From Chloroflexota bacterium (GTDB lineage: Bacteria > Chloroflexota > Anaerolineae > Anaerolineales > VGOW01): 64,000 nt of DNA. The notes below the pieces were generated by a model that worked only from the letters and a program-made list of their open reading frames with translations, did not search any database and had not been told where the DNA came from. The translations under genes were made by a program, and so were the position numbers. Positions 25,039 through 32,540 of the stretch are shown piece by piece; the first letter of the stretch is position 1, and each line of letters begins with the position of its first letter. The stretch is from NCBI GenBank assembly GCA_016875735.1, contig VGOW01000002.1, forward strand, positions 1 to 64,000, written 5' to 3'.

Positions 25039-25117
25039 CAAGATGAGAGGATGACAAGATGAAGGGATGAGATTGATCATTTTGTCATTTTGTCATCGGG
25101 CCATCTTGTCATTCTCT
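25036..25117. repeat. Degenerate short tandem repeat (gacaagatg / ttttgtcat type)
   Basis: ctgacaagatgagaggatgacaagatgaagggatgag...cattttgtcattttgtcatcgggccatcttgtcatt. Confidence 0.65.
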
Positions 25118-28100
25118 GTGCCCCGCTACCGCGACGACCTCCTCGCCGCACTCGGCTTCCTCCTTCTGCCCTTCGTCTTGTTTTGGCCGGTCGCGCTCGG
25201 CGGCCGCACCCTCATCCCCGCAGACAACCTTTTCTTTTTCGAGCCGTGGGCTTCGGCGCGCGAACAATTCAACGCCCTCCCGCCCGACATTCCGCACAAC
25301 GACCTCCCGCTCGATCTGCTCCTCGAAAACTACGCCTGGAAACGGTTCATCGCCGACTCACTGCGCGAGGGCGAACTGCCGTTGTGGAATCCGCACCTCT
25401 TTGCTGGAGCGCCCTTCCTCGCCGCCGGGCAACACTCCGCCCTCTATCCTTTCAGCCTCCTCTTCTACATTCTCCCCATCCCGCGCGCTTTCGGTTGGTT
25501 CATCGTTTCGCAATTTTTTCTCGCCGGGTTGTTTGCATACATTTTTCTGCGAGCCATCGGGCAGAGTCGCGTCGCCGCCTTTCTCGGCGGGCTGGTGTAC
25601 GAATTCAGCCTGTTCATGATCGTCAGCGTCACTTTCCCGATGATCATCGCCGGGGCTGTGTGGCTTCCATTGGTGCTCGCCTCTGCCCACTGGATCATCG
25701 AGCAACGCCCCGCGCTCGGCGGTCGCCCGGCCTCCCTCCCATGGGTCATCATCGGCGGCATTGCCCTCGGCTGCCAAATCCTCGCCGGCCACCCCGAAGT
25801 CATCTATTACACACTCCTCATCGCTGGCGCTTACTCTGCCTTCAATCTCAAATCTCAAATCTCAAATCTCAAATCCCTTCTGCGCCCCGCACTCTATCTT
25901 CTCGCTATGGTCACGCTCGGCCTCGCGCTTGGCGCGGCGCAATTGATTCCGCTGATCGATGTCCTGCGCGACAACTTCCGAGTCGGATCAGCTACGCTGG
26001 AACAAGTGCGCGGCTGGGGGTATCCGCCTCGGCACCTTCTCGCTTTCCTCATCCCCAACGTCTTCGGCAACCCGGCTCATCACCGCTACCTCGATCTATT
26101 CACGTGGCAGTGGACGCCCGTCACCGTCAACGCGCTCGGTCAGCCCATCGTCAAAATTGATTGGGGCCCGCCGATCACTAATTACGTCGAAGGCGGCGCA
26201 TACGTTGGCATCCTGTCGCTCATCCTTTCCACGTTTGGCATTCTCTCCATCTTCCAACGCTCATCTACCCAACCACCTAGCCACCCCGCGACAGCGCCCC
26301 GAAGCGACAGCGGAGCGGGAACCACCCAACCACCCCGCGACAGCGCCCCGAAGCGAAAGCGAAGTGGGAACCACCTAGCCACCCAACCATCCAACCACCT
26401 AACCGCCAAACTCTTCTTCGCCATCCTCGCCGCCCTCTCTCTCGCCTTCGCCTTCGGCACGCCGCTCTATGCCCTCATCTATTATCTTCCCGGTCTCAAC
26501 CAACTGCACTCACCCTTCCGCTGGGTGTGGCCCTTCAGCCTTTGCATCGCCGCCCTCTCCGGCTTCGGCCTCGATCACCTTCGCCTCACACCCCACGCCC
26601 CACGCCCCACGCTTCACGCCTCACGCCTCGCGCTCCTCTCCGGCATCGCAACCCTCGCCGCCCTTCTCCTTGTTGGCCTCAACTTTGCCAATCTTGAGTC
26701 TTCAATCTCCGATCTTCTCAACTCTCTCGCCCTCGCCAACACCGCCTTCGCCGATGCGCGAATGTTTTTCTCATACGAAGCCGTGTGGGTCGCGCAGCTC
26801 GGCGGGCTGCTGATCGCATCGGGCATCGTGCTACGGCTCGCCGCCCGCAATCATCGCTGGTGGCAGCCGCTCGCCATTGCCCTCGTCGCTGTCGATCTCC
26901 TCAGCGCCAGCGCCGGTTTCAATTCCGCCGCCGACCCGTCGATCCTTTCATACACACCACCAGTCATCGACTTCCTCAAAAAAGACACCGGCTACTGGCG
27001 CTTCACCACCTTCGACCCCGACGGGCGCAAACCCTTCAACGCCAACGCCGGATGGTTCTTCACTCTTTACGATGTGCGCGGCTATGACTCGATCATCCCG
27101 AAACAGTACGCGCAATACATGAGTCTCATCGAGCCGCAGGGCGAACTGCAATTCAACCGCATCGCCCCCATCTCCAATCTCCAATCGCTCGATTCTCCCC
27201 TTCTCGATCTCCTCAACGTCAAATACGTCCTCTCGCTCGCCGAGATTCCACTCCCCAAATACAAACTCGTCTACGACGCCGAAGTGAAGGTGTATGAAAA
27301 TCTGGGCGTCTCGCCTCGTGCTTTCACCCTACCCGAAGAATGCTCCATCGCCGCCGACGACTTCGCCTCCACCGTCCAATCCAACGACCCTCGCCGCCTC
27401 GCCATCTTCGACCAGCCACCCAGCCACCCCGCGACAGCGCCCCGAAGCGACAGCGGAGCGGGAACCACCCAACCACCCAACCACCTAACTGCCTGCAACC
27501 CGATCCCCGCCGACATCATGGCCTACGGCATCAACGAAGTTACAATCAACGTCGGGCCTGTCGAGCCATCGTTCCTCGTCCTCGCCGACTCGTACGCGCG
27601 CGGCTGGCGCGCATTCATTCGCCCCGTCGGCGCTGATGAAAAAATGGAAACCGAAGTTCCCCTCTATCGCGTCAATGGAAACTTCCGGGCGGTGAAATTG
27701 GACAGCGCCACGAGCGGCTGGTCAATCCGATTCAAGTACAGCCCCAACTCGGTAAAACTCGGCGGCTTCACTTCGGCCATCGCCGCGCTCACCGTTCTGC
27801 TCACCGCAGGCATTTGGTTGTGGCGCTACTTCTATCGCGAAAGCGCCGAGGATTCCACCGCGCGCCGCGTCGCCAAGAACAGCCTTGCCCCCATGGCCCT
27901 CACCCTCATGAACCGCGCCATCGATCTCGTCTTCGCCGCGTTCATGTTGCGCATCCTCGGCCCCGGCGACGCAGGCAAATACTATTACGCCGGAGTGCTC
28001 ATCACCTGGTTCGAGATTTGGACGAACTTTGGCCTCAACACTTACCTCACCCGCGAAGTCTCGCGCGACCGTTCGCACGCTAATCGTTACCTCTCGAACA

Positions 28101-29323
28101 CCACGCTCCTGCGGCTCGGACTCGGCGCGGTCTCGTTCCCCGTGCTGGCCGTGATCATGCTCGGCCTCTCGGCCTCCGGCAACCTCGCCAACGACACCGC
28201 GCTCGCCATCGTGTTGCTCGCCATCGGCCTCGCCCCCTCGTCGGTGTCCACCGGCCTCACCGCCCTCTTCTACGCCTACGAAAAGGCCGAGTACCCGGCG
28301 GCGATCACCACCCTCACCACGCTCCTCAAAGTCACCTTCGGCGCAATCGCCCTCCTTCTCGGCTACGGCTTCATCGGCCTCGCCGCAGTCACGATCATCG
28401 TCAACACCGTCACAATGATCGTGCTGGCGATCCTCGTCGTCCGCCTCTTCTTCCGCCCGCGCCTCGAATTCGAGCGGCCACTGCAAAGCGCCATGATCCG
28501 CGAATCGTGGCCGCTCATGCTCAACCACCTTCTCGCCACCCTCTTCTTCAAAGTGGACGTGGCATTGCTCCAGCCCATTCGCGGCGACACCGAAGTGGGC
28601 TGGTACAGCACGGGCTACAAATTCATCGAAGCCTTCAACATCATCCCCTCGTTCTTCACTTTCGCCCTCTTTCCAATCATGAGTCGGCAAGCGAATGAAG
28701 ATCGCCCGGCTCTCACTCGCTCGTACACCCTCGCCGTCAAATTGCTCGTCGCCACCGCCCTGCCCCTCGCCGTCGTCACCACCTTTCTCGCGCCGACAAT
28801 GATCGGCCTCCTCGCCGGGCCGGAATTTCTGCCGCACGGCGCAGTCGCCCTCACCCTCATGGTCTGGTCGATCCCCGTCGGCTGGATCAACAGCGTGACC
28901 AATTATGTGCTCATCGCGCTCGGCCAACAACGATCCCTCACCCGCGCCTTCATCATCAGCCTGACCTTCAACGTGATCGCCAACCTGATCTTCCTCCCGA
29001 TCTACGGCTACCCGGCGGCGGCGATCATCACCATCCTCTCCGAGATCGTGGAAGGGACGCCGTTTTACATCACCCTTCACCGCACGCTCGCGCCCATCCC
29101 GTGGCCGCGCATTTTGTGGAAGCCGGCGCTCGCCACAACGATCATGTTCGGGCTAACGTGGATTGGATGGCAGATACATCCGCTCATCGGACTCGGTTTG
29201 GGCGGGGCCGCCTACCTTGGCCTCGCCGTCGCCCTGCGCCTCTTCGACGCCGACGAACGCGGGCAATTGATCGGTGTATTACCGAGGGGGACGAGAGACC
29301 GAATCAAGGTGGTGATAAAATAG
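25067..29323 (+). CDS. YfhO-like membrane protein fused to an oligosaccharide flippase-like (MATE/Wzx) domain
   Basis: N-terminal YfhO-like DNLFFFEPWASAREQFNALPPDIPHNDLPLDLLLENYAWKRFIADSLREGELPLWNPHLFAGAPF; C-terminal ~450 aa ARRVAKNSLAPMALTLMNRAIDLVFAAFMLRILGPGDAGKYYYAGVL... Confidence 0.8.
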   Translation: MRLIILSFCHRAILSFSVPRYRDDLLAALGFLLLPFVLFWPVALGGRTLIPADNLFFFEPWASAREQFNALPPDIPHNDLPLDLLLENYAWKRFIADSLREGELPLWNPHLFAGAPFLAAGQHSALYPFSLLFYILPIPRAFGWFIVSQFFLAGLFAYIFLRAIGQSRVAAFLGGLVYEFSLFMIVSVTFPMIIAGAVWLPLVLASAHWIIEQRPALGGRPASLPWVIIGGIALGCQILAGHPEVIYYTLLIAGAYSAFNLKSQISNLKSLLRPALYLLAMVTLGLALGAAQLIPLIDVLRDNFRVGSATLEQVRGWGYPPRHLLAFLIPNVFGNPAHHRYLDLFTWQWTPVTVNALGQPIVKIDWGPPITNYVEGGAYVGILSLILSTFGILSIFQRSSTQPPSHPATAPRSDSGAGTTQPPRDSAPKRKRSGNHLATQPSNHLTAKLFFAILAALSLAFAFGTPLYALIYYLPGLNQLHSPFRWVWPFSLCIAALSGFGLDHLRLTPHAPRPTLHASRLALLSGIATLAALLLVGLNFANLESSISDLLNSLALANTAFADARMFFSYEAVWVAQLGGLLIASGIVLRLAARNHRWWQPLAIALVAVDLLSASAGFNSAADPSILSYTPPVIDFLKKDTGYWRFTTFDPDGRKPFNANAGWFFTLYDVRGYDSIIPKQYAQYMSLIEPQGELQFNRIAPISNLQSLDSPLLDLLNVKYVLSLAEIPLPKYKLVYDAEVKVYENLGVSPRAFTLPEECSIAADDFASTVQSNDPRRLAIFDQPPSHPATAPRSDSGAGTTQPPNHLTACNPIPADIMAYGINEVTINVGPVEPSFLVLADSYARGWRAFIRPVGADEKMETEVPLYRVNGNFRAVKLDSATSGWSIRFKYSPNSVKLGGFTSAIAALTVLLTAGIWLWRYFYRESAEDSTARRVAKNSLAPMALTLMNRAIDLVFAAFMLRILGPGDAGKYYYAGVLITWFEIWTNFGLNTYLTREVSRDRSHANRYLSNTTLLRLGLGAVSFPVLAVIMLGLSASGNLANDTALAIVLLAIGLAPSSVSTGLTALFYAYEKAEYPAAITTLTTLLKVTFGAIALLLGYGFIGLAAVTIIVNTVTMIVLAILVVRLFFRPRLEFERPLQSAMIRESWPLMLNHLLATLFFKVDVALLQPIRGDTEVGWYSTGYKFIEAFNIIPSFFTFALFPIMSRQANEDRPALTRSYTLAVKLLVATALPLAVVTTFLAPTMIGLLAGPEFLPHGAVALTLMVWSIPVGWINSVTNYVLIALGQQRSLTRAFIISLTFNVIANLIFLPIYGYPAAAIITILSEIVEGTPFYITLHRTLAPIPWPRILWKPALATTIMFGLTWIGWQIHPLIGLGLGGAAYLGLAVALRLFDADERGQLIGVLPRGTRDRIKVVIK
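25842..25876. repeat. In-frame TCAAATC-type tandem repeat
   Basis: tcaatctcaaatctcaaatctcaaatctcaaatc encoding FNLKSQISNLKS. Confidence 0.85.
26265..26405. repeat. In-frame CCACCCAA-type repeat plus two ~50 bp units
   Basis: ccaccccgcgacagcgccccgaagcgacagcggagcgggaaccaccc repeated twice with divergence, flanked by ccaaccacct units. Confidence 0.9.
26585..26630. repeat. In-frame CACGCCC-type tandem repeat
   Basis: cacaccccacgccccacgccccacgcttcacgcctcacgcctcg. Confidence 0.85.
27413..27489. repeat. In-frame second copy of the CCACCCAA/50 bp repeat
   Basis: gccaccccgcgacagcgccccgaagcgacagcggagcgggaaccacccaaccacc, same as 26280-26334. Confidence 0.9.
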
Positions 29324-29365
29324 GGCCATACGGGGGAGTGCATTGCGACAAGCAGGAGGCCAGGC

Positions 29366-31186
29366 ATGTCAGAGATTCTATTACTTCAAGAGCGCGTCAA
29401 GAATACCATCCAACTCGGCGAAAGCCATATACGAGAGTTTAAGAGCGCATGGGAAGGAGCACCGGAGAACAAAAAGCCCCGGCCTGTCAAGGAAATTTGT
29501 CGCGACATAGCAGAGGCTCTAGTGTCGTTCGCAAATGCCGACGGAGGGGAATTAATAGTGGGTGTTGAAGATGACGGCACGATAACAGGGGTTCCTCACG
29601 ACGGACAAGCACTCAATCAGATGCTATTTGCTTATCAAACTTATGTACATTCGGAAAATCAACTTCCTCTGTCGATTGCTACAAAATTGGAATGTGAGAA
29701 TCAAACACTAGTATTCTTCTCCGTACTAAAAGGAACGACTGAAATATATCAACTTTCTGATGGAAGATGTGTGCGGCGCAAAGACAAAGTATCTATTCCT
29801 GTTGCAATCAAGCAAATTGTGTTCGAGCGGCAAGAAACCAGATCGCGAGAATGCGATCGCCAATTTGTTGATGGCGCAACGGTGAATGATTTGGATGTCG
29901 CTCTTATCCAGTCAATCGCAGACAATCATTTGCGAGGGCTGAGTGTTGAAAGGTATCTTCAACAAACTGGCTTGGCAGAGTATTCGTCCGGTGGGTTGAG
30001 GTTACGAATGGCAGCTTTGTTGCTCTTTGCTAAAGACATTCAGCGATGGCATCCCCGTTGCCAAGTACGAATACTCAAAGTTGTAGGCACGCAGCTAAAA
30101 TCTGGGGAGAATTACAATGTTAAATCGGATCAGATTGTGCGCGGGAATATTTTCGATCTTATCCCTAACGCATGGGAGCAACTTCGTCCATTTCTTGCTG
30201 ATAAAACAGAATTCGGAACCGATGCAAAATTCGAGCAAAAGTATCTATATCCTGAGGGTGCTTCTCGAGAAGCTTTGATCAACGCGCTCGCCCATAGAGA
30301 TTATAGTGTCCAAAACGGGATCGAAGTATTCATTTTCGATGACAGAATGGAAATAAAAAGCCCGGGCGCACTACTGTCAACCTTGACTATAGAGGACCTA
30401 CAAGGGCTTCAGGGAGCTCATGAATCCCGAAACGCCTTCGTCGCCAAAGTGCTTAGCGAGAATAAGTATATGCGGGAGCTGGGTGAGGGCATCAAGCGAA
30501 TGTTCGAGCTCATGGAACAGAGCGAATTGGACAAACCTGTTTTATATTCCAATTCAACCTCGTTTAGCGTAACTCTAAACCATAAGTCTGTCTTCTCTAC
30601 CCAACAAGAGCAATGGCTTCAATTGTACGATTCGCTAGATTTGTCGCCGCGGCAAAAGAAAATCATTGTCTTGGGCATGGACGGTAGAGACCTGTCGCCG
30701 AATGATATTTACCGCGCCATGAATACTGATGATCGAAACACGTATGATAGAGAGGTCACTGGACTACGCAAAGCCAATGTATTAATAGAAATCAGAACCA
30801 ACGTTCAAGCACAATCATATGCCCGCAATAATAAGATTAAGAAGGGGGAAGTCCCTCGCTTCAAGGTTGCTGTGCCAGAATCAACACACCCTGATAAACC
30901 AAAACCTCGTGGCAATGCTATGCTCAAGGATGCTCAACGTTGTGTCTTCATATACAATCTTCCGTTTTCATCTACGCCGGAAGACCTTAAGAAGGTATTT
31001 GAAAGATATGGTGAAGTGGAACAGGTAGTACTCCCTGTAGATCATCTCACCCAACGGCCAAGAGGTTTCGGATTTGTTTGGTATTACTCCCGCGACGCGG
31101 CGCAAAAAGCCCTGCGGGAGTTAAGTGGTGTGGATGTAAATGGTAGAACAGTCTTCGTGAGAGAGTATGAGGAAAGAAATCGTTAG
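29366..31186 (+). CDS. AlbA_2 (Schlafen-like) + HATPase-like protein with C-terminal RRM
   Basis: [15 protein letters not shown]...[43 protein letters not shown]-terminus [63 protein letters not shown] (RNP2/RNP1); RBS-like gcaggagg. Confidence 0.88.
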
Positions 31187-31205
31187 GCTACTTGGAGAAC
31201 AAAGA

Positions 31206-32540
<1,335 letters not shown>

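Follow-up and report, generated by a model that had tools for sequence, protein, structure and literature searches.

An RRM-tailed form of the BREX-linked Schlafen-minimal-kinase-wHTH proteins

The 64-kb stretch of Chloroflexota DNA analysed here (the window) contains one gene that represents a new, RRM-bearing form of the Schlafen-minimal-kinase-wHTH proteins, a group linked to BREX defence. Its roles in defence and in RNA targeting are predicted ones. The gene is probably a rare variant of a bacterial anti-virus enzyme. According to the reading preferred here, to which a probability of about 0.5 is given, it would encode a horizontally transferred, single-gene defence RNase of the abortive-infection type, with putative RNase activity, RNA binding and ATP-dependent switching. 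This reading is drawn from a conserved catalytic triad, a Schlafen-like fold, a toxin-antitoxin/abortive-infection slot that holds the gene, defence-type surroundings of relatives, BREX-linked kin and retention of the RRM. The gene is an open reading frame of 606 codons, uninterrupted and free of internal stops in the ORF analysis of the window. Its parts and its surroundings are as follows.

29366..31186, + strand: whole gene, 606 aa, in the order Schlafen/AlbA_2, HATPase_c_4, winged helix (probable), linker and RRM (single ORF; homologues)
29420..29791, + strand: SLFN_AlbA_2, aa 19-142, with candidate catalytic residues E19, E24 and D69 (Pfam 5e-13, alignments, Foldseek)
30317..30577, + strand: HATPase_c_4 (GHKL-like), aa 318-404 (Pfam 2e-23, invariant columns, PDB relative 3lmm)
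30593..30880, + strand: probable winged helix, about aa 410-505 (inferred from AF2 helices followed by a strand)
30881..30931, + strand: flexible linker, aa 506-522 (pLDDT <50; length differs among fused homologues)
30944..31153, + strand: RRM, aa 527-596, with RNP2 VFIYNL and RNP1 RGFGFVWY (Pfam 5e-18, AF2, Foldseek)
29324..31205, no strand: cargo slot, from the upstream gene (25067-29323) to asnS, which starts at about 31206 (synteny, Pfam)
31206..32540, + strand: asparaginyl-tRNA synthetase-like gene (asnS), the conserved downstream neighbour (sequence judgement; synteny)

The domains that the initial annotation had recognised from motifs are recovered by Pfam as AlbA_2 (5e-13), HATPase_c_4 (2e-23) and RRM_1 (5e-18). 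All three exceed the curated cut-offs, with 50.0 bits against 25.3 for SLFN_AlbA_2 (PF04326) and 65.2 bits against 20.7 for RRM_1 (PF00076). The motifs also lie where they had been described: the ES-x-x-REFK pattern of AlbA_2 is found as ESHIREFK at aa 19 and the second AlbA_2 motif at aa 57, the two HATPase-type motifs of the middle part begin at aa 295 and aa 372, and VFIYNL and RGFGFVWY begin at aa 527 and aa 566, aa 526 starting at nt 30941. An invariant N-box-like motif, E302xxxN306AxxH310R, immediately precedes HATPase_c_4 in the alignment columns. An AF2 model, computed from a 14-row alignment of the window protein and its homologues, adds to this architecture a winged-helix-like segment (about aa 410-505) and a disordered linker (aa 506-522) between HATPase and RRM. 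The segment is modelled as helices 412-424, 428-436, 445-452 and 457-469 with a strand after them; it has no Pfam match of its own and is a probable winged helix. The mean pLDDT of the whole model is 81, and at its pTM of 0.48 the mutual placement of domains is not to be read from it. Such a value is expected if the RRM is flexibly tethered.

The AlbA_2, HATPase and wHTH core has already been described, and the RRM tail is the new part. According to PMC12839542, BREX/BR loci of at least 1017 taxa are associated with Schlafen-minimal histidine kinase-wHTH proteins, which have been proposed as back-up suicidal RNases; a preprint of 2025 on the anti-phage role of bacterial Schlafens is also cited there. 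In the window protein Schlafen/AlbA_2, GHKL-like ATPase and wHTH (the last by predicted structure) follow one another in the same order, but no BREX gene is nearby and it has its own C-terminal RRM, which the part of PMC12839542 considered here does not report for such proteins. The same paper describes DUF499 ATPases of BREX-related systems, with a fast-evolving C-terminal RRM-like fold proposed to recognise invader nucleic acid. These are likewise prokaryotic defence ATPases with a C-terminal RRM-fold, although their ATPase is unrelated to that of the window protein and their fold is described there as a divergent ferredoxin/RRM, whereas the window protein has a canonical RRM_1. The best full-length structural relative is DIP2311 of Corynebacterium diphtheriae (3lmm), an AlbA_2-HATPase protein (Foldseek 3e-22 over 544 columns, sequence E 8e-17), which is uncharacterised and, unlike the window protein, is without an RRM. 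The mammalian tRNA/rRNA endoribonucleases SLFN13, SLFN11 and SLFN12 share the N-terminal fold and the positions of the E-(4 residues)-E...D triad; however, their nuclease domain is two-lobed and they have neither GHKL domain nor RRM, while the Schlafen domain of the window protein has one lobe. In C. elegans, PUCH, composed of three SLFN-like proteins, acts with PETISCO in piRNA precursor processing (PMC10567574), so that a Schlafen-type RNase works with an RNA-binding complex containing the RRM protein TOFU-6. This shows that a division of labour between a Schlafen nuclease and an RRM complex exists elsewhere. PUCH and PETISCO are separate eukaryotic proteins, and the likeness to the window protein is an analogy of working, not kinship. 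The solo bacterial RRMs (Rbp, NF058537; AB-Elavl, PMC9313427) are canonical RRM_1 domains like that of the window, but they are small stand-alone proteins, and the fused RRM has W, not E, in RNP1. Membership in Rbp_regulator (NF058537) was rejected at 67.6 bits against a curated cut-off of 100.

Because an SLFN13-type triad is conserved and the predicted fold is that of a Schlafen, sequence and model indicate that the N-terminal domain is more likely an RNase than merely a DNA binder. In HMMER alignments this region matches SLFN12, SLFN13 (5yd0), SLFN14 and SLFN11. Residues E19, E24 and D69 fall on chain residues 218, 223 and 261 of 5yd0, which, minus an offset of 13, are E205, E210 and D248 of SLFN13. 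In rat SLFN13, tRNA cleavage is abolished by mutation of E205 or E210 and diminished by mutation of D248 (PMC5862951). When the N-terminus is aligned alone, all three residues are invariant in 12/12 proteins; when the whole proteins are aligned, E24 is shifted in the three most divergent rows, and invariance beyond the close family is therefore alignment-dependent. The N-terminal AF2 model is of moderate confidence (pLDDT 70, pTM 0.63). Its Foldseek matches in the PDB are 3lmm, 2kyy (a RecG-related N-terminal domain), SLFN13 (5yd0, 7e-5), SLFN12 (1e-4), SLFN11, SLFN14, SLFN5 and the SAMD9 tRNase domain. The AlbA_2 domain named in the initial annotation is thus present, but its treatment there as a generic domain gives way to that of a candidate nuclease. 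A prokaryotic Argonaute, the best PADLOC match, was rejected, since the match is confined to the N-terminal AlbA_2/HATPase part (model positions 49-437 of 1121) and no MID or PIWI was found by Pfam.

The gene appears to be foreign to its genome. Its GC content is 45.3%, about nine standard deviations below other 1821-bp stretches of the 64-kb window, which is the baseline of this comparison (mean 60.6%, sd 1.7, minimum 54.6%; z about -9). The local counts from which horizontal acquisition was first suggested, 21/60 at 29641-29700 and 40/60 at 28441-28500, are correct. The GC step coincides with both ends of the gene, and the RRM part is as AT-rich as the remainder; the fusion therefore came in as one piece. 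Two congeners, G002 and G003, keep both flanking genes with 75-84% DNA identity to the window, and identity resumes at 31206 (83-84%) with asnS, named from its product sequence without a family search. According to synteny and Pfam, the slot between these genes contains an 87-aa antitoxin-like gene and a PIN toxin in G002, and an Abi_alpha protein (PF14337) and a PIN toxin in G003. Because the cargo differs in this way, the slot before asnS is interpreted as an exchange site for toxin-antitoxin and abortive-infection genes. The GC step, the differing cargo and a patchy distribution across phyla together support the horizontal acquisition proposed earlier. As separate observations on this slot, the Abi_alpha of G003 (L078:2487-3853) has a tail, EEVARKWDSDKSATETVAEMRR, nearly identical to that of the G002 antitoxin-like protein (L077), and each of the two stands before a PIN toxin; the Abi_alpha seems to be fused to the toxin-binding tail of an antitoxin. 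PIN toxins and Schlafen RNases are possible tRNA cutters and here adjoin a tRNA synthetase gene, which may be chance.

The core is rare and patchily distributed. A pattern-based, not exhaustive, scan of 85,462 species genomes yielded a close subfamily with 57-72% identity, which is present in 10 or more genomes from six phyla, extending beyond the source phylum to Bacillota, Bacteroidota, Cyanobacteriota, Desulfobacterota and Acidobacteriota. The hosts are Tumebacillus, Paenibacillus, Desulforapulum, Saprospiraceae, Pseudanabaena, Acidobacteriota, Cytophagales, Odoribacter and other Bacteroidia. Congener G004 carries a 63% homologue of the first 88 residues, the contig end cutting the gene. 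Random samples of 399 Chloroflexota, 299 Bacillota, 245 Cyanobacteriota and 197 Bacteroidota genomes contained no further close homologue at E <= 1e-60, and 395 genomes of the Paenibacillus order yielded, at E <= 1e-40, nothing besides the seeds and four relatives of 34-36% identity. Among the best plasmid and phage matches, just HATPase-region relatives of at most 32% identity were found, none covering 80% of the query.

The C-terminus is the variable part of the family. The protein ends after HATPase in L034, which has no winged helix, and in L038; it ends after the wHTH in L029-L031, L033 and L036; and wHTH plus RRM is found in the window, L027 and L028. The nearest relative, L032 (72%), has an internal wHTH deletion and no RRM following, and the 35% relatives apparently have two winged helices. 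Among the members found, the fused architecture with RRM occurs in three genomes only, those of the window, Tumebacillus and Paenibacillus, and the literature searched yielded no description of it; the initial impression that the AlbA_2, HATPase and RRM fusion is unusual is borne out. A separate RRM gene directly downstream of the RRM-less members was sought and none was found. Among the hosts of L027-L036, every one with an RRM-less homologue has a solo RRM gene and the two Bacillota hosts of fused genes have none, which is suggestive of a partner in trans but is confounded by phylogeny. Decaying copies were also observed, one frameshifted in a Saprospiraceae MAG (L037:1785-3033) and one with the internal wHTH deletion in an Acidobacteriota MAG (L032:2127-2330). 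Additionally, in Clostridia MAGs (L048, L050, L051 and L053) the AlbA_2-HATPase protein is split in two ORFs, several with an overlap of about 44 nt (for example L050, 1771-2721 and 2678-3295), representing either a conserved split gene or a programmed frameshift.

The three fused RRMs are mutually 27-31% identical, compared with 57-60% for their cores. Against 14 solo bacterial RRMs they form one group with support 96/90, to be read with caution given long branches and about 84 columns. All three share an unusual Trp in RNP1 (GFGFVWY, GYGFVWF and GFAFIWF) at a position occupied by E or D in 13 of the 14 solo RRMs (GFGFVEM type) and by T in the other. A profile search of the Tumebacillus and Paenibacillus genomes found no RRM besides the fused one, which supports transfer of a ready-made fusion. 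As judged from the sequences, the fusion is real and mobile between phyla and is not an assembly error. An assembly chimera or annotation artefact was rejected because the fusion recurs in two other independent genomes and neither GC nor frame is interrupted; an origin by fusion to an RRM gene of the host itself was rejected because the fused RRMs group apart from host solo RRMs and the Bacillota hosts are without one. In the best tree of the core the fused members do not group as one clade, although such a clade is not rejected (p-AU 0.256). The RRM may have been gained once, early, and then lost in some members, or it may have been swapped. The window protein keeps its RNP aromatics (F528 of RNP2; F568 and F570 of RNP1), and in Tumebacillus a His replaces the RNP2 aromatic. 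The modelled domain has the babbab order and a Foldseek TM of 0.92 to the RRM of hnRNP A18. RNA binding by this RRM is likely from its residues and its modelled fold.

Some of the relatives stand in defence-type surroundings. L034 adjoins a restriction-modification pair of a D12 methyltransferase and a SacI-like endonuclease, and on the G004 contig the 63% homologue has an MvaI/BcnI endonuclease and methyltransferase at a distance of about 3 kb. The L034 pair and family member (L034:5798-9233, Bacteroidia) form an apparent insertion between purL- and purC-like genes. The 35% relatives L054/L097 and L062/L101, to which HKD-SNF2 neighbours are confined, adjoin HKD and SNF2 helicase genes; one of these loci has a type II methyltransferase-like gene and the other a PDC-S14/DUF4357 gene. 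A DUF2281 gene is directly upstream in L031. L027-L030, L033 and L036 are alone among housekeeping genes, not in defence islands. Beside the window gene no BREX/BR core gene was found, the neighbours between 24 and 37 kb of the window being housekeeping-like as read from the ORF list. Context and conserved residues are what speak for the RNA-directed anti-phage or mobile-element factor suggested in the initial annotation, and that function stays a predicted one.

If the gene encodes a defence RNase, the N-terminal Schlafen/AlbA_2 domain would be the nuclease, and it may act as a dimer or a larger assembly, since its single lobe corresponds to the two of mammalian Schlafens. Switching and oligomerisation would fall to a core of GHKL-like ATPase domain and winged helix, which would keep the oligomer quiescent until infection turns it on. 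The Schlafen lobes of neighbouring subunits could then build an RNA groove. The tethered C-terminal RRM may bind single-stranded RNA, either sensing foreign transcripts or delivering a substrate, tRNA or mRNA, to the nuclease, and cleavage of tRNA or mRNA would halt translation. A more specific version is offered tentatively: a single-gene RNA-sensing immune protein in which the RRM, on recognising foreign or substrate RNA, would license the Schlafen RNase via the GHKL switch. The C-terminus of the family would then serve as an exchangeable sensor, which may be missing or consist of a single wHTH, a pair of wHTH, or wHTH and RRM.

The defence reading has evidence against it. Most of the close homologues stand alone among housekeeping genes and so do not point to defence, and most family members are without an RRM, which is dispensable for core function. 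The carboxylate triad may be common in AlbA_2 DNA-binding regulators, the Tumebacillus RRM has lost the RNP2 aromatic to His, and the pTM values of the whole and N-terminal models are low (0.48 and 0.63). A somewhat doubtful alternative is a COG2865-type transcription regulator, in which AlbA_2 and winged helix would bind DNA, GHKL would sense nucleotide, and RNA would modulate promoter binding via the RRM. AlbA_2 is traditionally described as DNA-binding (e.g. PMC6299218), a probable winged helix is predicted, the annotations of many distant relatives read ATP-binding or helix-turn-helix protein, and most members are genomically solitary. However, the nuclease triad is conserved and RNases are the nearest solved folds, toxins and Abi genes occupy the slot in congeners, and L034 and L038 dispense with the winged helix altogether.

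The nuclease and RRM evidence would also serve for a stress-type RNase controlled by the host and outside defence, which would process or degrade the cell's own RNA, with the RRM picking transcripts. The position directly before asnS and the lack of a defence island in the window, its neighbours judged from the ORF list, fit such an enzyme, but foreign GC, patchy cross-phylum spread and cargo swapping are typical of conflict genes and not of housekeeping RNA regulators, and this explanation is considered unlikely. It is least probable of all that the RRM does nothing for the protein or was attached by misassembly. The RRM-less majority and the low identity of the RRMs relative to the cores would agree with an idle tail; however, fold and RNP residues are retained in three independent genomes, the fused RRMs are one group (96/90), the Bacillota genomes have no other RRM, and GC and reading frame are continuous.

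Mammalian Schlafen RNases are interferon-induced antiviral factors, and their bacterial counterparts are emerging as defence enzymes. To our knowledge, the bacterial RRMs described so far are, with few exceptions, small stand-alone proteins whose role is unclear. For the question of how bacterial Schlafens choose their RNA or sense infection, the RRM fusion gives a direct handle: the bound RNA could be read by CLIP-type experiments, and the sensor could be removed with the nuclease untouched, because RRM-less homologues exist in nature. The window protein would give a bacterial example of an RRM with a defined enzymatic partner.
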